From: a virus
Virus record (IMG/VR): IMGVR_UViG_3300007236_000008
Coordinates: 1-42,883 of that record
Length of the DNA: 42,883 bases
Strand: one strand, 5' to 3'
This document shows positions 937 to 42,883 of this stretch, one piece after another. The notes below the pieces were generated by a model. It ran no database searches. It worked only from the letters and a program-made list of their open reading frames with translations, and had not been told where the DNA came from. The position numbers and the translations under genes are program-made. How positions within the stretch are numbered: the first letter of the stretch is position 1; each line of letters begins with the position of its first letter.

Positions 937-1254
937 ATGACATGGATAGATAATATAATTGAACAGGCTTCAGAACCGATAATAGTGGTTGTAAAACATT
1001 TGAACATAGGAGTGGATGAGATAAAGTGTCTCCCCCTATCTGTAAAAGAATACAACGGCTTGAAACAGAACCCAGAACTAATAGGACTGAATGAAGAAGA
1101 CCGAGCAGAAAGACTTGGAATGCTCATGGTTTTTGAAATGATGCTAAAGTGCGACAAAGAACTCACATGGGATAGTTTTCAAAGGATGCCCTTAACAACC
1201 ATAGGACAACTAACAACTGCAATAATGGGAGCAGTTAACGTCCCTTTAGAATAA
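937..1254 (+). CDS. Tail assembly chaperone, zero-frame product (gpG-like)
   Basis: This 105-aa, mostly helical acidic protein lies between the major tail protein and the tape measure, the position of the lambda gpG-type chaperone that coats the tape measure during tail assembly. The start is supported by a GGTGATT Shine-Dalgarno at 925-931, five nt before the ATG. The stop is TAA at 1252-1254, just after a slippery heptamer. No start codon with its own ribosome site is needed for the coding frame that follows, because it is reached by frameshifting. Identification is by synteny and by the frameshift architecture, which is conserved across tailed phages. Confidence 0.75.
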   Translation: MTWIDNIIEQASEPIIVVVKHLNIGVDEIKCLPLSVKEYNGLKQNPELIGLNEEDRAERLGMLMVFEMMLKCDKELTWDSFQRMPLTTIGQLTTAIMGAVNVPLE

Positions 1255-1460
1255 TCGAAGAGTATGCCGAGTCTGATGAAGGTCAATTCCTCTTCGCCCT
1301 CTTAGCACATCTCGGCATGAGTATAATAGAGTGGAAAGAATTAGACCCTAGAGAGGCTCATTTCCTTATAACCGCCTTCTCTGTAAAGAACCGTAAGGAG
1401 TCTGAACATAACCGTAAGGCTAGTCAAAGGGCTAGAGCGAATAGAATGGTGGGAAGATAA
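937..1460 (+). CDS. Tail assembly chaperone, -1 frameshift fusion (gpGT-like)
   Basis: Read as 937-1248 joined to 1248-1460. A -1 slip on C-CCT-TTA (1242-1248) bypasses the zero-frame stop and adds 70 residues to the first 104, giving a 174-aa fusion. The -1 frame is open from 1239 to the TAA at 1458-1460 and encodes a plausible helical, basic-ended protein segment that starts RIIEEYAESDEG and ends RARANRMVGR. Its stop overlaps the tape-measure ATG (TAATG), as expected for a real gene end. In lambda and many other phages the fusion recruits the major tail protein to the tape measure. The alternative is a sequencing indel, but the slippery site and downstream structure argue against that. Confidence 0.8.
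1242..1319 (+). promoter_or_regulatory. Programmed -1 frameshift signal with H-type pseudoknot
   Basis: The slippery heptamer CCCTTTA (1242-1248) matches X-XXY-YYZ in the zero frame. After a 7-nt spacer, CGAAGAG (1256-1262) pairs perfectly with CTCTTCG (1290-1296), forming stem 1. Inside its loop, ATGCCGAG (1264-1271) pairs perfectly with CTCGGCAT (1311-1318), forming stem 2; 1263 and 1319 can add a U-G pair. The crossing pairs make an H-type pseudoknot, with 18 nt between the stem 2 5' strand and the stem 1 3' strand. A Shine-Dalgarno-like GGGAG at 1227-1231, ten nt before the heptamer, resembles the upstream stimulator of bacterial dnaX frameshifting. Pairings were checked base by base; function is inferred. 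Confidence 0.85.
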
Positions 1461-4102
1461 TGGCAGAAGTAACAACCATTATGACAAGGGTTACGGCTGA
1501 TACCACATCCTTTCGTAAGAACATGTCTGCTGTAGGTAGGTCTCTACTAGCAGCAGGTGGAAAAGTATCTCGTTTGGGTACGGTGATGAATGCTAATTTC
1601 AAAGCAATCGCTCTTTCAGCCAGTGCCGTCGGTGCATCTCTGACAGCAGGGTTTCTCAAACAATCTTCTGAACTATTCATTGAGTTTAACGATACGCTAG
1701 TCCGTACACAAGCGGTTATGCAATCGACAGGCGAAGAAGCCATGACGCTTGAGAATACAATCAGAGACATAGGTAAGTCAACAAGATTTACTGCGTCTCA
1801 AGCAGCACAGGCAGCCGAGGTTCTGGCTATTGCAGGTGTTTCATTTAATGAGATGGTTGATGATGAAGTTATTGACAAGTTAGTGAAGTTCGCTATCGCA
1901 GGTGGTACTGATATTCAGACTGCTACTACAATTGGTGTAGCGTCGGTTAAGGCGTTCCGTATGGAGATGGGACAATTGAACGAAGCAACTGACGTTCTTG
2001 TTAAGACATTTACAAGTGCAAACGTGGATGTAGTCGGTCTTGGAGAAGCAATGAAGTTCGTTGCTCCTGTTGCAGCAGCGGCAGGTATTGGAATTGAAGA
2101 AACAGCAGCGGCTATCGGTGCGTTAGGTAATGCAGGTCTACGTGGTACAGTGGCAGGTACAGGTCTGCGTATGTCCATCAATAAATTATTGAAACCAACT
2201 TTCGATGCTAGAAAAGTTATCAATGACTTGAACTTAGAAGTATTCGTTTTATCTGATGCAGGTAAGACTGCAAATGCATCATTGAAAGCCACTATGAACC
2301 AAATGGATGTAACAGCACGTATTACATCCCGTCTAACTATGGAAGTCAATAACTTACAAGGCGAGTTAGATGATTTGGCTATGGCTGAGAGAAAGAATCA
2401 ACTCTCCATCTCAGAGATTAGATTTAGAGCGGCGCAACAACAAAGAGAGTTGAATCAATCTGAAATAGACCAAATCCGAAGGTTAGAAATGGCTAATGAA
2501 GAACTTAGTATAACATCTCAAAAGAGAACAATAGAGTTGATGGAAACATCCGATGCTATGAAGAAAGCCGAAGAAAGACAATCATCATTGAAGAAACGGT
2601 CTGATGAACTAATCAAAACAGTTGAGATGCAAACTATGGGTCTGACTTCATTGACGGACTTACTTCATCAGATGCGTGATGGTAATATTACTGCGGCTCA
2701 AGCACTGGAGATATTCGGTGTTCGTGGTGGTACGGCTGTTCTTTCATTGATGTCTCAAGTAGATGCTTTCGATGAACTTGTAGCAGCAAACAGAACTGCG
2801 GCAGGTACAACAGAACAATTCTCTACCACACTACAACAATCATCTTTTGAAGCATTGCGTGTTTTCAAATCACAGATTGAAGAAGCGTCAATTACTCTCG
2901 GTGTTCATTTCGTCCGGGCTTTATTCGATGTCGAATATCAAGGACAGAAAACTACGGGTGTCCTTAGCGACTTCGGTAAGACGTTGAACGAACCGGGTGG
3001 TGTAGTTGAACAATTGACACCGCAGATAATTGCATTAGCAAATACTCTGAAAACAAATCTACCTGCTGCAATCGACGTTTTAGTCGCTACTGTACCTTTG
3101 TTCGTAGAAGTCTTGTCGGCAATAGCAAGAATACTACCTGCACTAGCATTGTTGGGTCGAATATTAACGGCTATTGTGACTCCATTAGTAAGACTGTTTG
3201 GTATGTTCATGGATGTGGTTGATGCGGTTCTTACATTCGACGGTTCACTAAAGGGGTTAGTGAAAATATTTAGTACACTTATTACTTTCGTATTGGAAGC
3301 AATAGTTATATTCTCTGGGGTTGGATGGGTCTTGAGGTCTCTCGGCGTTTTCTTTGAAGGAACTAATGAAAAAGCGTCTAAGTTTTTCCACACTCTAGCC
3401 GACTTTGCAGGGTTGGCAAAGGGTGGAGCAAAACTATTCATGATGTTGGGTAAAAGGTTGCCCGGTCTAGGACGTTTGTTCAAAGGTGCAAGTAGTGGAG
3501 CAGGTTCTTTCTTGAAGAGTCTTAAAATCTTAAAAGGCCCAATCAACACTATATCGAAGTTGGTTGCTAAATTGAAAAACTTACTCCAACAACTTGGCGG
3601 AGTCTTGAAGAATAATCGTTTTACAAAGTTCTTCGGCAAGGTGAGAAGTGCATTAACTGACAGTCGTTCTTCTGCTCAAATAGCAAATAGTGTTGAAAAA
3701 ACCAATCGAAGAAACTTAGCACATGCTATGGGGAATCAAGGCATGGGTGGAACAAAAGGATTGACACCCGACCAAGTGAACGCAGGGCTACGGGCTAGAG
3801 GTATTCCAGTAAAGGATATGCCTCTCTTCGCCGCAGGTGGTATTGTGTCAAAACCAACAATAGGTATGATAGGTGAAGGTGGAGATAGTGAAGCAGTTAT
3901 TCCTTTGACAAATAGTAAACTAAAACAAATTGGAGTAGGTATCGCTGATGCAAGTGGTGGCATGGGTACTAACATCTCTATTGGCGATATTGTGATTAAC
4001 GGTGATGGGTTGAACAAGCATGAGATACAGGCTATGATTGAACGTGAACTACCAAAAATCATCAACCGTTCAATGAGACGGGGAGCACAGGGGGTTATCT
4101 GA
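1460..4102 (+). CDS. Tail tape measure protein (TP901 type)
   Basis: This 880-aa protein sets tail length and is packed inside the tail tube. Residues about 95-245 match the TP901-type tape measure core, including TRFTASQAAQAAEVLAIAG and the later GLRGTVAGTGLR. Residues about 290-400 form a long charged coiled coil. About 525-625 is strongly hydrophobic with several membrane-like segments, as is usual for the part proposed to meet the host envelope. The region near 788-819 carries the FAAGGIV...GEGGDSEAVIPL signature seen near tape measure C termini. At roughly 0.15 nm per residue the tail would be about 130 nm long, a rule-of-thumb inference. The ATG overlaps the chaperone fusion stop (TAATG) and the stop overlaps the next ATG (TGATG). 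Confidence 0.92.
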   Translation: MAEVTTIMTRVTADTTSFRKNMSAVGRSLLAAGGKVSRLGTVMNANFKAIALSASAVGASLTAGFLKQSSELFIEFNDTLVRTQAVMQSTGEEAMTLENTIRDIGKSTRFTASQAAQAAEVLAIAGVSFNEMVDDEVIDKLVKFAIAGGTDIQTATTIGVASVKAFRMEMGQLNEATDVLVKTFTSANVDVVGLGEAMKFVAPVAAAAGIGIEETAAAIGALGNAGLRGTVAGTGLRMSINKLLKPTFDARKVINDLNLEVFVLSDAGKTANASLKATMNQMDVTARITSRLTMEVNNLQGELDDLAMAERKNQLSISEIRFRAAQQQRELNQSEIDQIRRLEMANEELSITSQKRTIELMETSDAMKKAEERQSSLKKRSDELIKTVEMQTMGLTSLTDLLHQMRDGNITAAQALEIFGVRGGTAVLSLMSQVDAFDELVAANRTAAGTTEQFSTTLQQSSFEALRVFKSQIEEASITLGVHFVRALFDVEYQGQKTTGVLSDFGKTLNEPGGVVEQLTPQIIALANTLKTNLPAAIDVLVATVPLFVEVLSAIARILPALALLGRILTAIVTPLVRLFGMFMDVVDAVLTFDGSLKGLVKIFSTLITFVLEAIVIFSGVGWVLRSLGVFFEGTNEKASKFFHTLADFAGLAKGGAKLFMMLGKRLPGLGRLFKGASSGAGSFLKSLKILKGPINTISKLVAKLKNLLQQLGGVLKNNRFTKFFGKVRSALTDSRSSAQIANSVEKTNRRNLAHAMGNQGMGGTKGLTPDQVNAGLRARGIPVKDMPLFAAGGIVSKPTIGMIGEGGDSEAVIPLTNSKLKQIGVGIADASGGMGTNISIGDIVINGDGLNKHEIQAMIERELPKIINRSMRRGAQGVI

Positions 4103-7100: not shown

Positions 7101-9729
7101 TTTCCGTAGTGGTTATTTTGATTCAGACGATGTAGCGGTGACTGCCGGAACAGTGAAAACTGTACCCGGCCTACATAATATGAAGAGATTATTTTGGAAT
7201 CATACACCTAATGCTACTGGTAATAAATCAGCAGATGTGGGGGTGTTTGACGTAAAGAACAGGTATGCACGTGTTAAGGCTGATAATGCCTATCCACCTT
7301 CTTCAATATACAATAGACCCGCAGTATGGATGACTGGTGGGCTACCACACTTGACAACAAGTGGAACATGGACTGGATTCGTTGACCTTGATGGAGATGA
7401 TACATACAACCTACCCGGCACTGGTGGGTTTGGTAGGTTAGGAAATGGTTTTGGAACTTCAAATTACTTCACATTCTCTGAAGGCACTAACACATTACGG
7501 ACAGTCTTTAATACAAAGGGAATGACTTTCCTTTGGAATGGGGAAGTTGTTGGAACTGATGTATCATGTAGAACTCCAGTATGGGCCATGTCAATCAAAT
7601 CTTGCGACATAGCAACATTCCCAGTGAGAACTCCAATCGCTCATCCATCTAATTCAACCGACCACTGGGCGAACCACTGGGCCGAAGGCGACCCTGCGGT
7701 AATGCACACTGGAACAAGAGATTACAACAGAGACGATAGAGTTGCTTTTACGGAACATCAAGGTGCAAGATACACTCTTTACCTTGGTGAAATGACATAT
7801 GCTACATCGGGGACTTCACTCTCTAGGAGCGTTAGTACACCTTATGCTTTCGATACTGACTCTACATTGAATGCCGCTATGATTGCCCGTCTAACTGACT
7901 TAACGGCAACCGAAGCACAGTTTGTTGTATTTACCTCTGACAACTTTGCAGGGACACCATTCACAATTGGCAAACAAGTCATCACTGAGTCCAGTGGAAC
8001 TTTATCTATCAACGTGGGTAGTGCTACATACATATTCACGATAGGGGGTAGTCCACCTACTTGGGTTAATAATGCAACGTATCATGTTTTTGTGTCATTA
8101 CAAGGAGAGCCAATCACACCCGATTCAATTCCGATTACATCATTGAATGGTTTCACACAAACAAGTTATTTCGAGCCAGAATATCCCGCTAGAACTCTTT
8201 TACACGTACCTGCCGACCCTACGGACTTCCTTGACTCGAATGGTGAGATAACCCGGTTGACGAATCCAACTTTGCAGAAGTCGAATCAAGATTTACAAAT
8301 CGACTCTATGACATTACGTCAATTACCAACAGACAGTATGCTACCATTTACAGTTGATTCAATTAAACAACAACCTTCGACAACGGTAGCAAGATATACT
8401 AAACTGAATATCTATGCTAGGAATATAGACAAGGCGAAAGGGATGGACGTTAGAGTTACTTTACTAGAACCCCCAGTGGTTGCTACAATAGACCAAGAGG
8501 CTTCTACAACAATAGATGGATTCATAGACCGAGAATTAGATTATACTGGTGGAATAGGAACACTGGACTTGACTGGTTTGCCAAGCAGCGTGGTCGCTAA
8601 TGGTTTCGTCGTGAGGTTTAACTTTTATATACCTTCCGTTTCTGATACCTTACTACATCCTATCGACTGGTCTGCTATTCCTTATGTTACTTCATGGGAC
8701 GTTGAATATGATGAGAAGCCGACAGTCGATATAGCAGTTATTTCAAACTCATATGACGGCAGCACTGCGACAAGTGTTGTTGAGGCATCAGACACTACAT
8801 TCGCAACAAAGGTAGGACATGTGATAACATTCAGAGTGAGTGGTGCTACAACAGATGAAAACCGCACCATCTCTGAGTTTAAGGTTGAGTATGGCGACGG
8901 GACAGATAGTGGATGGGTAAAAGTAGAAACCCCTGCGACAAGTATAACTCAAGATATATCGTATGTTTATACAACAACAACTGGAACAAGAAACGTAAAA
9001 GCGTATGTCAAAGATGATGTGGGTAATGAATCAGTTGCTTCAGACCCTACGATAACTTACACTATTGTAAATGCCGAACCTATTGCTATCCTTAGAGCAA
9101 TACCAACAATGGTAAGAGCGGGACAAGCAATTCGCCTCGACGCATCTTCTTCGTATTCGATTAATTCATCGGCTTCACTTTCAACTTACACTTTCAACTT
9201 CGGAGACGGTTCATCTGCTGTTTCTAGTGGTACGTCATATAACGACCATACTTATGCAGAAGCGGGTGAGTTCCTTGCTACACTTGTTGTCGTGGATTCT
9301 AACGGCACATCTTCGGCTACTGCTAAGGTAGTTGTGAAAGTATTACCTGCAACACTAATCATCCCATTAACATTGAATACAAAGCCTTCATCTTTCAGTA
9401 GAAGAAGAGTCGCCAACTTTACTCAGACACCAGTCTTAGATGCTGTTTATCCCGAAGTAACTGACCGAGGGCAGAGAGTTGATGAGTTTGAAATGCAAGG
9501 AATATTCCTTAAAGAAACTGAGAATACTGATATTGAGTTTATGGAAGAGTTGTTACAAAGCGGTGCATTGGTTGAGTTTGAATATGAAGCAGTTAATTTC
9601 TCTGGACAGGCAACTAACAAGACCTTTGTAGGAAGAATGGTTTCATTCAACTATCAACGTCAAGGCGGCAATGTAGGGCAGACACCTTACACTGCGGTAT
9701 TCGTTAGAGAAGCAGGTCTGGGGGCATGA
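4102..9729 (+). CDS. Very large tail/baseplate protein with PKD-like domains
   Basis: This 1875-aa protein starts by TGATG overlap with the tape measure, so it belongs to the distal tail. Most of the chain (about 1-1500) is beta-rich, aromatic and low in lysine, without motifs I can name. Two PKD/Ig-like domains follow at about 1536-1656 and 1657-1748, marked by VEYGDGTDSG and FNFGDGSSA. The last 120 residues (EFEMQGIF...FVGRMVSFNYQRQGG) look like a compact beta domain, possibly related to distal tail proteins, at low confidence. PKD domains are common in archaeal surface proteins and in tail proteins that touch the host. Position and size suggest a baseplate or tail-tip component; enzymatic activity is not evident. 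Confidence 0.7.
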   Translation: MARSTQNIDKPFSRIKNGLAELQPMWPAYVKGDGGLTVDPQIFRSNFGPTTPSLSGLVDDVANTPGIRVEAINDNGTDAGTETDPAGIEPTLTISGSGGFKPICTLTHADSTKTSVFLIAPTSAPTDSFGLYDNDYTAEKRTSPMQGEVGVGTEHTRSNGPYPVFMTIQELTEFIDDYRHIGQLNASKPSFLPHGVEGRDSHVSATSANPVHGADPRIEWMVDTNSESAFGHADIPATSPYRATVFHPMLLDVNQFHKDISGATIKVSSGIRNGSTSAQYFPNGITRYDSDPSGLDSSTIKYKVFGKSGDHLTGLLHANLHANLPNSNYFQSFDSTAVPSPKYRMKMALACFLKDGTYSLNDGVIVPYVYDQTRHIGGTVTSTLYSIWDGLHGYGSEDDATYYSNDYLETNDCSAQIFPFFDFTQGPLAPSAQGNNWTNEQMTARHTTTTNANGVLNTIIAPPPHRMAILGMKKTGSLITVFCDHMDTTEDTALPAGTPIYLENNNANNFGTTNKATFPTAERKLWPDRWGLRGNQDGSDTYEDSDDSTDVGRSYNGWWITNADATITTGNSDADWQAADAPAGMYDKSGQTIANGYGGTTRSFVAFTFKTALFETGTDLNEVILFNRGDAYLRRGMVGGSEQKYFHTPDADDNATAGNIFGIEKRDANAEGSPSHSELGTGFQIGVSQMDSNVPARSSVDATYPGRPTIGERSLPSVDGKHRDGKVVLRSIGIVTKDVDGKILSAPNTYNEGDGALRIPSPLGYDLSDRYITVSGNYNDRLRADSGFPRLNGEYGHDKWLFRGVSTPFWSYTDTNTGRRAWDYIKPVGTALTTSGTWTYGRNRPWPGHERLGTRLSMSPTLLRSTDHSATWTESVSGDVVSARSSTTKYGLSEMAASPVYLDAEITAFFPARPNRMIMVEFDGNEEHPVFGRHSMVMDTPAHNYGMGLEPIWDGNIDGISQLTDPTSVSGTALTIPTNSDKRFYTRLTAAQHNGENAGPFRSGYFDSDDVAVTAGTVKTVPGLHNMKRLFWNHTPNATGNKSADVGVFDVKNRYARVKADNAYPPSSIYNRPAVWMTGGLPHLTTSGTWTGFVDLDGDDTYNLPGTGGFGRLGNGFGTSNYFTFSEGTNTLRTVFNTKGMTFLWNGEVVGTDVSCRTPVWAMSIKSCDIATFPVRTPIAHPSNSTDHWANHWAEGDPAVMHTGTRDYNRDDRVAFTEHQGARYTLYLGEMTYATSGTSLSRSVSTPYAFDTDSTLNAAMIARLTDLTATEAQFVVFTSDNFAGTPFTIGKQVITESSGTLSINVGSATYIFTIGGSPPTWVNNATYHVFVSLQGEPITPDSIPITSLNGFTQTSYFEPEYPARTLLHVPADPTDFLDSNGEITRLTNPTLQKSNQDLQIDSMTLRQLPTDSMLPFTVDSIKQQPSTTVARYTKLNIYARNIDKAKGMDVRVTLLEPPVVATIDQEASTTIDGFIDRELDYTGGIGTLDLTGLPSSVVANGFVVRFNFYIPSVSDTLLHPIDWSAIPYVTSWDVEYDEKPTVDIAVISNSYDGSTATSVVEASDTTFATKVGHVITFRVSGATTDENRTISEFKVEYGDGTDSGWVKVETPATSITQDISYVYTTTTGTRNVKAYVKDDVGNESVASDPTITYTIVNAEPIAILRAIPTMVRAGQAIRLDASSSYSINSSASLSTYTFNFGDGSSAVSSGTSYNDHTYAEAGEFLATLVVVDSNGTSSATAKVVVKVLPATLIIPLTLNTKPSSFSRRRVANFTQTPVLDAVYPEVTDRGQRVDEFEMQGIFLKETENTDIEFMEELLQSGALVEFEYEAVNFSGQATNKTFVGRMVSFNYQRQGGNVGQTPYTAVFVREAGLGA

Positions 9730-15201: not shown

Positions 15202-15208
15202 TTATATA
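15202..15208 (+). promoter_or_regulatory. TATA box, leaderless promoter
   Basis: TTATATA followed by CC begins 29 nt before the ATG at 15231, which is preceded by GATAGAAC. At this spacing archaeal transcription would begin at or within a few nt of the ATG, giving a leaderless mRNA. The same TTATATACC arrangement precedes genes at 19707 and 28896. Confidence 0.65.
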
Positions 15209-15230
15209 CCAATGCACACTCCGATAGAAC

Positions 15231-15692
15231 ATGGAAGCAAGAGAATACTGGCAGACACGAAGAGAAGGAAAGAAAGAAGAAGGCGAGACGTACGCTGAGT
15301 ACATCGTTAGAGAGTTAAATATCTCATTAGAGCATTTTGGCCGCTCTGAAAGAGCCGAAGTTAGAGACGACCATGTTTACTTCTGCGGTATGACTGTCTT
15401 AGAACACTGGGCTGACTGGTGCGACGACCGCCCTGCATCTTGGGTATGTTCCGACCACACTAACCCTAATGAAACTGTTATCTGGAATCACCGCGACCAC
15501 GAAGGTGAAAAATGGTCTGGTAGTTTCAACGTATGGCATCAGTTCGTAGTATCAACACTCTGCCACATCGAAGGCTGTGGTTGGACTGCTGACTATCGAG
15601 ACGAGGACGCTTGGGTGTTCGACCCTATCGCTAACCCACCGTATGAAGGCCACACAATAAGCGTGCAAGAATTGGCTTCACTTATGGCTTAG
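15231..15692 (+). CDS. Hypothetical acidic protein
   Basis: I do not recognise this 153-aa protein. It is strongly acidic and rich in Trp, His, Glu and Asp, with several cysteines in the second half (one CHIEGC) that could bind a metal. There is no signal or membrane segment. It has its own leaderless-type TATA promoter and ends by a 4-nt convergent overlap with the reverse-strand GroEL gene (both stops share TTAG). It sits between the tail operon and the chaperonin genes. Its separate promoter, like that of other orphan genes here, would suit an early or host-takeover gene, but this is speculation. Confidence 0.6.
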   Translation: MEAREYWQTRREGKKEEGETYAEYIVRELNISLEHFGRSERAEVRDDHVYFCGMTVLEHWADWCDDRPASWVCSDHTNPNETVIWNHRDHEGEKWSGSFNVWHQFVVSTLCHIEGCGWTADYRDEDAWVFDPIANPPYEGHTISVQELASLMA

Positions 15693-17263
15693 ACTTCTGC
15701 GACAAGCACTTCGGTTGTTAGGACTAACCCTGCAATCGAAGCGGCTGTCTCCAGTGAGTTTTTGACAACCTTGGCAGGGTCAATAACACCCTGTTCAATA
15801 AGGTCTCCAAACTCCAAAGTCTTGGCGTTTAGACCGTAGTTAGAGTCATTCATTTCTATGACCTGCTCTAGTGCCTCTGAACCATCAACCCCTGCGTTAA
15901 AACACAACTGATGAAACGGCTCTGCTAGTGCATCATGTACCATCATCATACCTAGCCATTCGTCGCCTTCATGGTCGTCTGAGGCATCTAGTATCTCATC
16001 TCTAGCACGTAGATACATGATAGAGCCACCTACTACTATCCCCTCTTGTAAAGCGGCTCTAGTAGCGTTCAATGAATCATCTACACGTGCGATTCTTTCT
16101 TTCATCTCTGCCTCGGTCTTACCACCGATGTGTAATACTGCAACACCGCCGGAAATCTTACCTGCTCTTGCTCTCAATGCCTCTGCTTCCCAATCAGTTT
16201 CAGCGTCTTTCGATTGAGCGATAAGTGCTTCTTGTCTTTTCCGAATATCACTCTCTGTACCACGACCACCAACTATTGTTGTTTTCTTCATCGAACATGA
16301 GATTGAAGACGCACCACCTAAAGATTCTATTCCGTTCCTTTGAGTTGACATTCCCTTACTGGAGAAAATCGGAACTGCTCCTACAACCGTAGCAATATCG
16401 GTGAGTATTTCTTCACGTGAATTACCAAATGAAGGTGCTTCTACTGCTGCGACTTCTAAGATACCACGTGAAGCATTAAGGGCGAGCGTAGCCAAAGCCT
16501 CACCTTCCATCTTGGTAGCGATAATCAAAAGTGGTCTTTTCATCTCTACTGCATAATTTAGAACATCAACAATTTCTTGAGCGGTTCGAATAGTTTCATC
16601 AGTTACTAAAATCAAAGGCTTCTTCATCGTCGTTTGTTGTTTTTCCGAGTCGGTAATAAAATGTGAACTAAGTAGCCCCTTAGTAAACTCAAGTCCGTCA
16701 ACAATTTCTAGCGTCGTATCGAGACCATTCGATTCTTCAATCGAGACAATCCCATCTCTTCCTACTGTTTGGAATGCTTGTGAAATCAGAGAACCAATTG
16801 CTTCATCATTATTGGCTGCTATTGTTGCTACATGAATCAAAGACGTGTCGTCAACATCGGAAGCCGCATCTTCGATTGACTTAACTGCTATCTCAACTGC
16901 CTTATCGAATCCTTTCTTAATGTGTATTGGATTGCGACCTGTTTTCATTTCAACTAATCCTTTATTGCATAATGATTGAGTTAGGATAGAGGCGGTAGTT
17001 GTTCCATCCCCTGCATTATCTTGAGCCTTACTCGCTGCTTCTTGAATAAGACGTACACCTAGATTCGCATATGGGTCTTCTTTCATATCAATGTCTTTAG
17101 CAATAGTAACACCATCATTAATTACAACAGGTGAGCCATATTGTCTTTCTAGTATTACAGTTCTAGCAGCAGGTCCTAATGTTGGCTTAACTGAATTGGC
17201 AACTTCATTTATTCCTCTCATTAATGCTTCTCTTGCTTCTTCACCATATATTGACTTCTTCAT
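15689..17263 (-). CDS. groEL: Group I chaperonin GroEL-like (60 kDa subunit)
   Basis: This 524-aa protein is an ATP-driven folding chamber subunit of the bacterial (group I) type, not the archaeal thermosome type. It aligns by eye with E. coli GroEL along its length: LGP near residue 29, NDGVTIAKDI with Asp50 (E. coli Asp52), GDGTTT at 85-90 with Asp86 (Asp87), and VDDSLNATRAA carrying the Asp398 equivalent. It ends where E. coli GroEL's disordered GGM tail would begin, so the tail is missing. It overlaps groES by ATGA and is transcribed against the surrounding tail genes. A viral copy probably assists folding of large virion proteins; whether it works alone or with host subunits is unknown. 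Confidence 0.93.
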   Translation of the reverse strand: MKKSIYGEEAREALMRGINEVANSVKPTLGPAARTVILERQYGSPVVINDGVTIAKDIDMKEDPYANLGVRLIQEAASKAQDNAGDGTTTASILTQSLCNKGLVEMKTGRNPIHIKKGFDKAVEIAVKSIEDAASDVDDTSLIHVATIAANNDEAIGSLISQAFQTVGRDGIVSIEESNGLDTTLEIVDGLEFTKGLLSSHFITDSEKQQTTMKKPLILVTDETIRTAQEIVDVLNYAVEMKRPLLIIATKMEGEALATLALNASRGILEVAAVEAPSFGNSREEILTDIATVVGAVPIFSSKGMSTQRNGIESLGGASSISCSMKKTTIVGGRGTESDIRKRQEALIAQSKDAETDWEAEALRARAGKISGGVAVLHIGGKTEAEMKERIARVDDSLNATRAALQEGIVVGGSIMYLRARDEILDASDDHEGDEWLGMMMVHDALAEPFHQLCFNAGVDGSEALEQVIEMNDSNYGLNAKTLEFGDLIEQGVIDPAKVVKNSLETAASIAGLVLTTEVLVAEV

Positions 17264-17526
17264 TCAATCACCCCTATTATATTCATTATTTTAACCATCA
17301 AGCAAATATTTCCATTCCACTGTAGTGAAGTCCCACAGTCTTTTTCTATCAAAACAACATCTCCTTTTTTGTATTCACTTTCTTTACTAAAAGGAGTAAT
17401 TTCTTCTATTACTCCAAAGCCATACGACGCTGCTTCGTCTTGTATAACTATTCCACTTGTTGTTGTTTGTTCGGGCATCCAACGCTTAACTAGAGCATAT
17501 CCTTTTGTCGGTGTTAAAACTCTCAC
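17260..17526 (-). CDS. groES: GroES-like co-chaperonin
   Basis: This 88-aa protein is the lid partner of group I chaperonins. The start is taken as GTG at 17526: translation then begins VLTPTKGYALVKRW after the initiator and Arg, matching the GroES N-terminal strand, and upstream in-frame sequence is unlike GroES and overlaps the divergent hub gene. The mobile loop is recognisable as TTSGIVIQ (GroES family GGIVL type), followed by GFGVIEEI and KKGDVVLIEKDCGT. A TATA-like TTAATATT lies 30 nt before the GTG, so the mRNA would be leaderless. It overlaps groEL by 4 nt. Length is slightly below the usual 95-97 residues. Confidence 0.88.
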   Translation of the reverse strand: MRVLTPTKGYALVKRWMPEQTTTSGIVIQDEAASYGFGVIEEITPFSKESEYKKGDVVLIEKDCGTSLQWNGNICLMVKIMNIIGVIE

Positions 17527-17548
17527 AGACGGTTCGAGTCCTAAGTGT

Positions 17549-17556
17549 AATATTAA
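17549..17556 (-). promoter_or_regulatory. TATA-like box for groES-groEL
   Basis: On the reverse strand TTAATATT starts about 30 nt before the GTG of groES at 17526. The spacing fits a leaderless archaeal promoter and independently supports the GTG start. It is only 8 bp from the opposite-strand TATA of the hub gene, so the two promoters are likely to interfere. Confidence 0.5.
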
Positions 17557-19677: not shown

Positions 19678-19684
19678 TTATATA
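19678..19684 (+). promoter_or_regulatory. TATA box, leaderless promoter
   Basis: TTATATA followed by CCC begins 29 nt before the ATG at 19707, which is preceded by TATAAC. Same layout as the promoters before 15231 and 28896. Confidence 0.65.
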
Positions 19685-19706
19685 CCCACACCCCTTCCCG
19701 TATAAC

Positions 19707-28866: not shown

Positions 28867-28873
28867 TTATATA
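28867..28873 (+). promoter_or_regulatory. TATA box, leaderless promoter
   Basis: TTATATA followed by CCCC begins 29 nt before the ATG at 28896, which is preceded by TTAGAAC. Same class as the promoters before 15231 and 19707. Confidence 0.65.
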
Positions 28874-28895
28874 CCCCTACCCTCTCCGTTAGAAC

Positions 28896-33030: not shown

Positions 33031-33328
33031 CATGGTCTCAGACTGGTGCTAATAATCGCACTGAAATGTTGGCTTTTACGAACTCTTCCGTGTCTGGACA
33101 GCATAGTGGTATTCATCTTACGAAGAGAGACGACGGCATGTGGGTTGTGTTTCACGAAGGAGCAGAATACGTTATGCCAGACAGGACAGGAACAGAAGAA
33201 GCAGCACGTGAGTTTCTAATTTCCATGCTTGGTGGCAAAAAGTTATCTAATAGAAACGAGGATAAACCCTTTATCCGGTTCAATGACCACGAAAGAGGGG
33301 CATCCTTCGATGTGTGGCAGGTGAAATA

Positions 33329-33329
<1 letters not shown>
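33021..33329 (+). CDS. Hypothetical protein
   Basis: This 102-aa protein has a strand [14 protein letters not shown] in the middle, a helix [12 protein letters not shown], and a polar C-terminal end. A GGAGTGA Shine-Dalgarno (33011-33017) lies just before its ATG, inside the upstream gene. Its stop overlaps the GTG start of the first collagen-like gene (TAGTG). Function unknown; its tight coupling to the fibre gene suggests a virion or assembly role. Confidence 0.6.
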
Positions 33330-36730
<3,401 letters not shown>

Positions 36731-36740
36731 GGTGTGATGA

Positions 36741-39542
36741 ATGGCAGATAATTTCAAAGTTGACGGAGATATAGAAGTCGAAGATGGTATAAAGTTCGGA
36801 GATGGAACTAGACAAACAACCGCTTCTAGTGGAATAGCAGGGCCTACAGGACCGGCAGGGCCTACAGGTCCAACGGGTTCTACTGGAGCGACAGGACCGG
36901 CAGGTGCAACAGGTCCAGCAGGTTCGACAGGACCGACAGGGCCGACAGGTCCTACAGGAGCAACAGGTCCTACAGGAGCAACAGGTCCTACAGGAGCAGC
37001 AGGGCCACCCGGTCCTACAGGTCCGACTGGTGGAGATGGACCAACTGGTCCAACAGGTTCTACTGGGCCTACAGGTTCTACTGGACCGACAGGAACAGCC
37101 GCAGGGTTCGGTACACCTACCGCAAGTACAGGACCAATAGGTGTAACAGCGTCCGGTCCTAACACAGCCAAAGTTTTTGCTTTTAGTATTCCTCAAGGAG
37201 ACACCGGAGCGACAGGTGCAACAGGGCCACCCGGCCCAACTGGTCCGACAGGGGCTACTGGACCTACTGGAAATACAGGTCCAACTGGAAATACAGGTCC
37301 AACTGGAGCGACTGGTCCAACAGGTGCGACAGGTCCACCCGGCCCAACTGGTGCTGTTGGTCCAGCAGGTAGTGTTGGTCCAGAGGGTCTAGTTTGGAAA
37401 GGTACATGGGCTACTTCGACTGCTTATGCAGTTGACGATGCTGTTTATTATTCCGTTGAGGAATCATCTTACATTTGTATTCAAGCACATACATCGGGTG
37501 CAATAACTCCGACTAACACATCTTATTGGAGCATCTTAGCAGCACAGGGAGATACAGGTCCTACAGGTCCGACAGGGGCTACAGGTCCAGCCGGACCACC
37601 CGGCCCTACTGGTGGCACTGGTGTAGCCGGACCACCCGGCCCAACCGGAGCGACAGGGCCTACTGGAGCAACAGGTCCGACTGGTAGCACTGGACCAACA
37701 GGAACGGCAGCAGGGTTTGGAACACCCACAGCAAGCACTGGTCCTATTGGTGTGTCTTCAAGTGGTCCAGACACCGCTAAAGTATTCGCTTTCTCGATAC
37801 CCGCAGGGGATGTAGGCCCAACAGGTGCAGCAGGTCCACCCGGTTCTACTGGTCCTACTGGCCCTGCTGGTGCGGCAGCAGGTTTCGGAACTCCTACTGC
37901 TAGTACAGGTCCTATTGGTGTTACAGCAAGCGGTCCTAATACCGCTAAAGTATTCGCATTTTCTATACCACAGGGAGCAACTGGCGCAACAGGGCCTACT
38001 GGGGCTACTGGTCCACCCGGTCCTACCGGACCTACTGGTGCTACAGGACCTACTGGTCCTACAGGACCTACTGGTCCTACAGGTGCTACCGGACCTACTG
38101 GTGCTGTTGGTCCTACTGGAGCGACTGGTCCGGCTGCCGGATTTGGAACACCCACAGCCTCTACCGGACCTATCGGAGTAACCGCTAGTGGACCGGACAC
38201 GGCTAAAGTATTTGCATTCAGCATACCTGCGGGTGCTACTGGGCCAACAGGTGCTACTGGAACAGCAGCAGGTTTTGGAACTCCAACCGCTTCTACTGGC
38301 CCTATTGGAGTAACGGCTAGTGGACCGGACACAGCGAAAGTCTTTGCCTTTTCAATACCTCAAGGTGCGGCAGGTCCTACAGGACCAACAGGGCCTACTG
38401 GTCCTATTGGACCAACCGGACCTGCGGGGGCTACAGGACCTACTGGTGCTGCGGCTGGCTTCGGCACTCCGACAGCCTCAACTGGTCCTGTTGGAGTAAC
38501 GGCTAGTGGTCCTGACACAGCCAAAGTATTTGCTTTCTCTATACCTAGTGGTGCAACAGGTCCAATAGGGCCAACAGGTGCTACTGGTCCTACAGGTCCG
38601 GCTGGTCCTACAGGTCCGGCAGGGCCTACTGGACCTACAGGTGCTACTGGGCCAACCGGCCCTGCCGCCGGATTTGGAACACCTACCGCAAGCACAGGTC
38701 CAATAGGCGTAACTGCCTCTGGACCAAATACTGCTAAGGTGTTTGCATTCTCGATACCGGCGGGTGCTACTGGACCTACTGGTCCACCCGGTGCAACAGG
38801 ACCTACTGGACCTGCCGGACCTACTGGGCCACCCGGTGGAACAGGGCCAACAGGACCTACCGGACCAACTGGTTCTACAGGTGCTACTGGACCTACCGGA
38901 CCAACTGGACCTGCCGGAGCGACTGGACCAACTGGACCTACCGGACCAACTGGTGCAATTTCATGGGAAAATGTTTGGGCTGATGGTAATTACTCCATAG
39001 GTGATGTTGTTACTCACGAAGGCGGTACTTACATTGCGGTGGCTGGTGTAACTTTTGGCGAAAATCCACCCAATGATTCGAGTAGATGGCAAACATTAGC
39101 AACACCCGCTAAGTTTTTCATTACAGCAGAATGGAATGACCAATATTATTCATCAAGTCTTAGAAACGGTTGGAGATTTTCTTTTGGTAGTGGTATCAAT
39201 AACGTAAACAACACTGATGGTTCAACAAATCCAATGGGTGCAGTAATACCGTTTGATTGCGAACTTAAGGAAATACGTTGGTTCGTAGGTAATGTCGGTG
39301 CGGAAACCGGGTCTACTTCTTTCATTCACAAGATTACAAAGAACGGTTCGGATTTAGCAACAACATATTCTTGGGCTTCAACCGGAAGCGGTGGTACTTC
39401 CTATACAAGAACCGCATCACCGAATCTTGGCTTTGTTGCAGGTGATACATTCAATCTACGATTAACTAGCCCGTCATCATATGTAAGTACAAATCAAGTG
39501 GGAAGAGTAAGAGTAGTGTTTTATTTTGAAATGAAGGAGTGA
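36741..39542 (+). CDS. Collagen-like fibre protein 2
   Basis: This 933-aa protein starts 10 nt after fibre gene 1, behind a GAGGTG ribosome site. A short N-terminal beta piece ([23 protein letters not shown]) may attach it to the virion. Collagen-like tracts then alternate with seven copies of the [15 protein letters not shown]...FAFSIP module. Two Trp modules ([20 protein letters not shown] near 215, and [20 protein letters not shown] near 735) resemble small carbohydrate-binding domains. The last 145 residues form a non-collagenous beta domain. Several Gly-Pro-Pro triplets are present, the kind hydroxylated by collagen prolyl-4-hydroxylases. Probably a trimeric tail or capsid fibre. Confidence 0.88.
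36838..38960 (+). repeat. Gly-X-Y triplet repeats and seven AGFGTP modules, fibre gene 2
   Basis: Modules begin near 37098, 37707, 37876, 38131, 38266, 38449 and 38664, separated by Gly-X-Y tracts of different lengths. Copies differ at PNTAK versus PDTAK and in the residue before Gly after FAFSIP, while codons vary widely. Length differences between tracts suggest expansion and contraction by recombination. Confidence 0.8.
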
Positions 39543-40162: not shown

Positions 40163-40705
40163 ATGTATGAAGGAACAGCATCATATAACGAAGAGTACGT
40201 TTTGATGACCCCACCTAGAACTGGTGGGCGTTATCTTTTCACTATTTTACAGCCGCATGGTTTTCTCGGTGGTGGTGGTGGTGAACCGAAGCGCATGAGT
40301 CATTCTTGGTCTGTTCCAGAACATGCTAAGGACTTCCCTAGAATACTATCAGTGCGAAACCCGTTTTCCCGGCTTGTGTCGTTCTATCAATTAATCAAAA
40401 ATCATTGGCAACCTAATCATCAATACAACAAAAATACGTTTGAAGAGTTTGTTGACTTCGTAACTGAACGTGAAAATATACTAGAACCACTTACTCATTA
40501 CATTGATGACGGAACATACATTTTTATTCACTTTGAAACCTTTGAAGACGACTTTCATTCTCTTCCTTTCATCAATAATGAAGAAGTTAATTTGTTGCGG
40601 AGCATCACAGATTGGAAAAGTTACTACAACAATGAAACTAAAGAGAAAGTTAGAGTCTACTATGCTGAGGATTTCACAAAGTTCGGTTATGATGACGATT
40701 TTTAA
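40163..40705 (+). CDS. Sulfotransferase (PAPS-dependent), probable
   Basis: This 180-aa protein would transfer sulfate from PAPS to a carbohydrate or tyrosine. The 5'-phosphosulfate loop is PPRTGGRY (17-24), the 3'-phosphate motif is SVRNPFSRLVSFY (63-75), and the end reads YYAEDFTKFGY, a common closing motif in Golgi-type and bacterial sulfotransferases. It is shorter than most (250-300 aa). It begins 6 nt after the third collagen-like gene, so the fibre or its glycans are the obvious candidate substrate. No signal peptide or membrane anchor. The host must supply PAPS. Its 3' end overlaps a reverse-strand gene. Confidence 0.8.
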   Translation: MYEGTASYNEEYVLMTPPRTGGRYLFTILQPHGFLGGGGGEPKRMSHSWSVPEHAKDFPRILSVRNPFSRLVSFYQLIKNHWQPNHQYNKNTFEEFVDFVTERENILEPLTHYIDDGTYIFIHFETFEDDFHSLPFINNEEVNLLRSITDWKSYYNNETKEKVRVYYAEDFTKFGYDDDF

Positions 40706-42430: not shown

Positions 42431-42883
42431 ATGGTTGTCGTATTATCTCTGTTTGATGGTATCTCATGTGGCAGAGTTGCACTAGAACGTGCGGGCATCA
42501 AGGTTACTCGATATTATGCTAGTGAGATAGATTCACACGCTATTAAAATATCCAAAAAGAATTACCCCGACATAATACATTTGGGTGATGTGAAGAATTG
42601 GCGTGAATGGGATTTACCTAAGATTGATTTAATCATTGGTGGTAGCCCATGTCAAGGTTTCTCTTTTGCAGGTAAGGAACTGAACTTTGATGACCCCCGT
42701 AGTAAATTATTCTTTGAGTTTGTGGATATACTAAATTACTATAAACCCAAATATTTCTTATTGGAAAATGTAAGGATGAAACAAGAATATCAAGACATAA
42801 TTAGCAATTATCTCGGAGTTCAACCTATTAAAATAAATAGTGCATTGGTATCAGCCCAAAATAGGAATAGATTATATTGGACT
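42431..42883 (+). CDS. DNA (cytosine-5)-methyltransferase, partial
   Basis: The first 151 codons are present; the gene runs off the window end. Motif I is LSLFDGISCGRVAL (5-18), motif IV is GSPCQGFSFAG (71-81) with catalytic Cys74, and motif VI is ENV (112-114), followed by QNRNRLYW (motif VIII-type). This is a standard C5 DNA methyltransferase, which would protect virus DNA from restriction or mark it. No partner endonuclease is visible. It starts 3 nt after the preceding gene. Confidence 0.92.
   Translation, partial: MVVVLSLFDGISCGRVALERAGIKVTRYYASEIDSHAIKISKKNYPDIIHLGDVKNWREWDLPKIDLIIGGSPCQGFSFAGKELNFDDPRSKLFFEFVDILNYYKPKYFLLENVRMKQEYQDIISNYLGVQPIKINSALVSAQNRNRLYWT

Follow-up and report, generated by a model that had tools for sequence, protein, structure and literature searches.

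Does a marine virus with archaeal-type genes produce two forms of its tail assembly chaperone through -1 ribosomal frameshifting, and what might induce its ribosomes to slip? The question is raised by a locus at positions 937-1460 of the IMG/VR virus record IMGVR_UViG_3300007236_000008, the whole 42,883-nucleotide (nt) stretch of which was analysed and is called the window here; the features of the locus lie on its plus strand. A first-pass annotation, made from the sequence alone, had proposed a -1 slip site stimulated by a downstream pseudoknot and an upstream Shine-Dalgarno (SD)-like element. We find it very probable that the chaperone is made in two forms via a -1 frameshift at C_CCU_UUA in what is likely an archaeal virus.

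A probable slip site in the overlap of two reading frames

The heptamer CCCTTTA at 1242-1248 lies in phase near the 3' end of an open reading frame (ORF) at 937-1254, where it is read as the 0-frame codons CCT TTA. This ORF encodes 105 amino acids (aa) and has its TAA stop at 1252. Past the two slip codons, the -1 frame stays open for 70 codons up to the TAA at 1458-1460, which overlaps the ATG of the tape measure gene at 1460. The extension, stop included, spans 1242-1460 and contains stops when read in the 0 frame, and the fusion of both parts has 174 aa. The coordinates first put forward for the heptamer and its phase, a 7-nt spacer (1249-1255), two perfect stems, an upstream GGGAG, the 70-codon frame and the 174-aa product all hold.

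Heptamers of the form XXXYYYZ occur in phase at 14 of the 8121 codon positions of 14 window ORFs, and CCCTTTA is in phase at the slip site alone. The locus has the lambda-type G/GT layout: two overlapping ORFs lie between a putative tail tube gene and the tape measure gene, and the second, in the -1 frame, has no start of its own before a conserved SDEGQFL motif. The tail tube identity of the upstream gene (485-922) is weak (phrog_290, E 0.0024).

In the mechanism that we propose, most ribosomes would stop at TAA 1252 and yield the 105-aa chaperone. A minority would slip back by one base on C_CCU_UUA, re-pairing from CCU UUA to CCC UUU, and would continue into the 174-aa fusion with its 70-aa C-terminal domain. 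The predicted roles, by analogy with lambda gpG and gpGT, are to coat the tape measure protein for the short form and to bring in the tail tube subunit for the fusion. A downstream RNA structure, differing between clades, probably helps.

The layout is shared by diverged relatives

When the N part, the C part and their alignments were used as queries against IMG/VR, 34 other contigs were recovered, or 35 including the window. For counts of the complete layout, L039, which starts inside the C domain, was left out, and L053 was counted though its contig ends within that domain; further loci on the same contigs (L012-L021 and L026-L035) were not counted twice. In all 34 contigs with both parts, the window among them, a slip-prone heptamer in phase precedes the C-terminal "SDEGQFL"-type domain (motif [ST]D.GQFL), which lies in the -1 frame. 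The heptamer is CCCTTTA in 13 contigs, GGGGGAA in 13, GGGAAAG in 4, GGGAAAA in 3 and GGGAAAC in 1, and, with bases numbered from the first one of the heptamer, the 0-frame stop starts at base 8 or 11. An in-phase heptamer in the ORF overlap is thus conserved, with GGGGGAA, found in 13 relatives, not strictly of the X_XXY_YYZ form. None of the 34 contigs has the two parts in one continuous frame.

The clade of the window, which we call clade A, comprises 13 contigs including the window, with C-part nucleotide identity down to 0.58, and retains CCCTTTA in 13/13; L001-L005 are near-identical to the window. Among five distinct clade A sequences, the stretch 1225-1259 shows synonymous differences in 0 of 64 comparisons against a mean rate of 0.21, the heptamer codons at 1240-1247 being unscored. 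Directly 5' of the heptamer, the sequence GCAGTTAAC at 1231-1239, which includes a -1 frame TAA stop at 1236, is invariant across 12 clade A sequences and absent from L022. A stretch of the tape measure gene, 1586-1612, is likewise at zero, with synonymous differences in 0/76 comparisons among five relatives.

The -1 frame extension is under purifying selection. Its ratio of nonsynonymous to synonymous substitution rates (dN/dS) between the window and four close relatives is 0.24 (L006), 0.23 (L007), 0.43 (L008) and 0.29 (L009); synonymous divergence of the window C part was not computable against L011 and L022. This selection, together with the layout shared by 34 contigs, argues against the view that the two frames result from a sequencing indel or a decayed gene. 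We found no evidence in favour of that view. Because independent contigs from many samples, with N-part protein identity down to below 50%, have an identical layout, an indel artefact at 1242-1251 is excluded, and indel and decay taken together have a negligible probability.

The C-terminal domain could also be translated separately from an internal start. The -1 frame does offer an ATG at 1317, and the extension has no other start codon until its last few codons. This ATG lies downstream of the SDEGQFL motif, so that initiation there would remove [ST]D.GQFL, which is kept in 34/34 contigs, and the corresponding residue is isoleucine in 6 of 13 aligned sequences. Separate translation is very unlikely in our judgement. 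The relatives support what had first been suggested from the window, that a virus with archaeal-type genes uses -1 frameshifting in its tail assembly chaperone gene.

The N-terminal part shows a modest resemblance to tail assembly chaperones

The N part has no match in Pfam or PHROGs, and the only families that the C part matches are of unknown function (phrog_7423, E 2.7e-4). An AlphaFold model of the N part, built from 18 sequences, has a predicted local distance difference test score (pLDDT) of 79.9. The model matches YqbN (3klu) with a Z score of 7.4 and 3.3 Å over 91 residues, and the HK97 tail assembly chaperone (2ob9) with a Z of 5.2 and 4.3 Å over 93 residues. A protein of unknown function, 5ir0, also reaches Z 5.2, and the remaining rows are at 3.8 or lower; a Z below 8 can reflect a common arrangement. 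The best BFVD match of the N part is annotated as a tail assembly chaperone (E 0.03, probability 0.99), as are several lower rows.

The adjoining gene at 1460-4102 encodes the tail tape measure protein (PF10145, 5.3e-31; phrog_1533, 1.1e-53). Because the fold matches combine with this neighbour, the assignment of the 105-aa 0-frame product as a tail assembly chaperone, predicted to play a lambda gpG-like role, is good despite the modest fold scores.

A pseudoknot is predicted in the window and its nearest relatives

What, then, might stimulate the slip? Downstream of the heptamer, after the 7-nt spacer, the window can form a perfect 7-bp stem 1 (CGAAGAG at 1256-1262 with CTCTTCG at 1290-1296) and a perfect, crossing 8-bp stem 2 (ATGCCGAG at 1264-1271 with CTCGGCAT at 1311-1318). 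Crossing stems at a spacing of 5-9 nt are present in the window and its near relatives only. Stem 1 is unchanged in L005-L010, has 6/7 pairs in L022 and 2/7 in L011. Stem 2 is complete (8/8) in the window, L005, L008, L009 and L010, and has 7/8 pairs in L006, 6/8 in L007, 5/8 in L022 and 4/8 in L011. A possible small third stem at 1274-1285, between both stems, forms 4 pairs in 5 of 7 distinct sequences and 3 pairs in L011 and L022; it may simply reflect the SD[EQ]GQ codons.

It is a real possibility, though short of probable, that these two stems are a functional stimulator of a genuine frameshift, perhaps as a three-stem knot. When the contig was scanned in 7-nt steps, a perfect 7-bp stem with a crossing 8-bp stem in the same register was found at 1 of 6114 positions, the one at the slip site. 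Structure scores were compared with synonymous-codon shuffles for 19 distinct sequences out of the 34, the set that also served for the anti-SD tests below. The two-stem score stands out in the window (p 0.015) and in L006 (0.002), L008 (0.002) and L009 (0.005). Across the clade A alignment, 84.8% of stem cells are paired, compared with 37-57% for slid versions of the stems.

Other results speak against this role. None of the 15 stem pairs changed on both sides among the 7 distinct sequences of the 13 clade A contigs, and 494 of 500 shuffles equal or exceed the clade A stems in covariation, so the compensatory changes that the first-pass annotation had named as a check on both stems were not seen. 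Stem 2 is broken at two pairs in L007, stem 2 is lacking in L011 and L022, and the two-stem score does not rise above shuffles in L007 (p 0.36), L011 (0.19) or L022 (0.68). The four low p values have a common ancestry. An energy score that allows G-U pairs is equalled or beaten at 41 of 6114 scan positions, or at 9 of 5134 outside the collagen-like genes. The stems also lack a compact H-type geometry, because the 5' arm of stem 2 and the 3' arm of stem 1 lie 18 nt apart.

The synonymous trough next to the heptamer is clear. Synonymous conservation was rejected as proof of the stems, since the stem regions are no deeper than troughs elsewhere, 1586-1612 being equally deep. A pseudoknot conserved over the whole of clade A was rejected as well, given its absence from L011 and L022 and the lack of compensatory change. 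What survives of the original proposal is a pair of stems, perfect in the window and recurring in close relatives, which makes the pseudoknot plausible for the window and its nearest relatives only.

Predicted downstream structures differ between clades

The slip site alone, with its stop codon context, might set a low rate at which RNA structure is irrelevant. Plain folding shows nothing unusual in the window region, with hairpin and minimum free energy scores unremarkable against shuffles (p 0.36 and 0.57) and an uninformative folding energy for 1249-1330 (z = -0.53). Only 5 of the 19 sequences reach p 0.05 for the pseudoknot, the fifth being L023 from the GGGGGAA clade, and the GGGAAAA/G sequences show no unusual structure (pseudoknot and hairpin p 0.65-0.99 in L042, L043, L045 and L049).

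This explanation must contend with perfect, well-placed stems both in the window's close relatives and in the GGGGGAA clade. In the latter, 13/13 contigs have a CCCUCG/CGAGGG hairpin that begins 6 nt 3' of the heptamer (for example L038:2996-3017). One of its inner pairs goes from C-G to U-A in L046 and L048, a compensatory change in which both substitutions are synonymous; the control for this hairpin is weak, as 84 of 500 shuffles score at least as high for covariation (7 distinct sequences of 13 contigs). A slip site acting without RNA structure appears to us possible but rather doubtful.

Within clade A, L011 has a different hairpin of 7 bp (GUCCGAG/CUCGGAC) that starts 7 nt after the heptamer and is not significant alone (hairpin p 0.31). 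We conclude that stimulators, if used at all, are clade-specific. A broader proposal is that archaeal ribosomes slip at C_CCU_UUA via an evolving, clade-specific RNA stimulator, namely a three-stem pseudoknot near the window, a hairpin at similar spacing in the GGGGGAA clade and possibly the hairpin of L011. We consider this proposal somewhat unlikely.

The upstream GGGAG is not a supported stimulator

Upstream SD-like sequences can act as frameshift stimulators, as in dnaX. The first-pass annotation had assigned such a role to GGGAG at 1227-1231, 10 nt before the heptamer. GGGAG is kept in L007 and in the near-identical L001-L005, and it is missing from 5 of the 6 other distinct members of clade A. 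Against a general anti-SD sequence, the pairing free energy (dG) is -6.2 for the window and for L007, -5.9 for L022 with its GGGGT, and -3.1 to -3.3 in L006, L008, L009 and L011. The match in the window is no better than in synonymous shuffles (p 0.83). Complementarity to the anti-SD about 10 nt upstream is accordingly not conserved, and with this shuffle result the element was rejected.

Outside clade A, the G-rich stretch 5' of the heptamer ranks first among 94 scored segments in 8 of 12 sequences. In 8/8 sequences with GGGGGAA or GGGAAAC, no other part of the ORF matches the anti-SD as strongly as this stretch, and these matches fall within the codon null (p 0.33-0.78). The virus seems to use SD sites at other genes, judging from sequence matches: of the 23 positions scored as starts (17452 among them is not a start codon), 11 have a dG of -7 or lower, compared with a fraction of 0.096 among 500 random segments.

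Host and genome setting

The host is likely archaeal, a reading that is drawn from gene content and sequence motifs. The window encodes a Hef/XPF-like nuclease (2.8e-23, under the curated cut-off) and a protein whose low-confidence model (pLDDT 51.6) resembles sliding clamps, with beta clamps and PCNA tied in Z. The PCNA Pfam model matches none of 11 records, and it would be length and context that justify calling the clamp-like protein 'PCNA'. MCM gave two weak matches in 11 records, under the cut-off. An RFC small-subunit-like protein is present in 6 of 13 records, from all three main clades, at 251-297 bits against a cut-off of 303, and the relative G001 encodes a B-family polymerase (phrog_262, 1e-68).

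The window has four TATA boxes of the form TTATATACC where 0.38 are expected. Three of them (15202-15210, 19678-19686 and 28867-28875) lie about 29 nt before ATGs that have no SD, which suggests leaderless archaeal transcripts; the fourth, at 8625, is within a structural gene. A scan of GTDB genomes for a host or proviruses gave 24 pattern matches, none of them confirmed as a relative.

Several findings pull against a two-form chaperone in an archaeal virus. At the slip site of the GGGGGAA clade, re-pairing of the second codon, from GAA to GGA, is imperfect. For the N part, Foldseek gives no match in either PDB or BFVD that reaches 0.001, and the structural similarities are modest, with Z of 5-7. 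The window record itself yielded no RFC, and the RFC family search also matches bacterial control genomes at lower stringency. By tblastn, the G001 terminase matches 337 records, nearly all of them bacterial phages and two from Haloarcula, and the window's tape measure matches mainly bacterial phages. The GroEL of the window is bacterial in type (TIGR02348, 2.1e-173).

This GroEL gene (15689-17263, minus strand) and a GroES-like gene (17260-17550, minus strand; best 1.1e-7) stand beside the archaeal-type replication genes, and ORFs with the length and start sequence of GroEL are present in both long relatives, G001 and G002. Elsewhere in the window, the region 33314-39542 encodes two very long, collagen-like proteins that consist of G-P-T repeats and are perhaps tail fibres. 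A sulfotransferase-like protein is encoded at 40163-40705 (3.9e-6), and a C-5 cytosine methylase at 42431-42883 is cut by the contig end.

Relation to known systems and significance

Many tailed viruses make two versions of this chaperone by a -1 slip. The lambda slip site is G_GGA_AAG, unlike the C_CCU_UUA of the window, and the replication genes of the window's virus group are archaeal in type. The likeness to lambda lies in a tail assembly chaperone frameshift, described for gpG/gpGT in PMC5009743, and the N-part model here modestly resembles the HK97 chaperone.

Frameshifting in an archaeal virus, for which the first-pass annotation had put the locus forward as a good model, has precedents. 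Frameshift sites of the -1 type in the same gene were reported for the haloarchaeal viruses HVTV-1, HCTV-1/2/5 and Hardycor1 (PMC5009743, PMC8211752, PMC7911831), the slip site of Hardycor1 being G_GGA_AAT (PMC7911831), and +1 shifting was proposed for HF1-like viruses (PMC7230728). The present family shares with HVTV-1, HCTV-1/2/5 and Hardycor1 the gene and the direction of the shift, and the hosts there are archaeal. It differs in the pyrimidine-rich heptamer of the window, in being known from metagenomic contigs and in its weak similarity to haloarchaeal records in the phage collection. The Halorubrum tailed virus OP630574 (L055) carries a comparable domain, 'ESDLGQFLYEL...GPQEW', which is in frame -1 with respect to ORF19, with a BLAST E of only 0.9. 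Our scan found no canonical heptamer in it, and G_GGG_GAC at the corresponding place is a reading by eye.

Magrovirales and relatives, viruses of Poseidoniales, are predicted to be head-tailed archaeal viruses (PMC12999244, PMC13108676). Apasviridae among the described groups carry PolB and an archaeal-like primase (PMC12999244), and the genome map of Aoguangviridae shows RFC-S, PCNA and a tail assembly chaperone (PMC10768690). Among the phage-collection matches to a primase-like or major capsid protein (MCP) query there was no magrovirus record, the presence of magroviruses in that collection being unchecked. Frameshifting is not mentioned in PMC12999244 and PMC13108676, and the word is absent from PMC10768690 and PMC10160649. 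No report of frameshifting in Poseidoniales viruses, or of CCCUUUA frameshifting in archaeal viruses, was among the literature matches listed, as judged mostly from titles and abstract openings.

The kind of frameshift is already known; the additions made here are the C_CCU_UUA site, the strong comparative support and the changing downstream structures. Worked examples of archaeal recoding are few: a 2021 review gives Sulfolobus fucA1 as the demonstrated -1 case in archaea, besides the reported haloarchaeal-virus sites (PMC8211752). The present family contributes 19 distinct sequences with several kinds of slip site and one conserved protein pair. It suits reporter tests in archaea of which slip site and RNA structure sets the rate. 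If the stimulators do vary by clade, they would form a natural set for one conserved frameshift in archaea.
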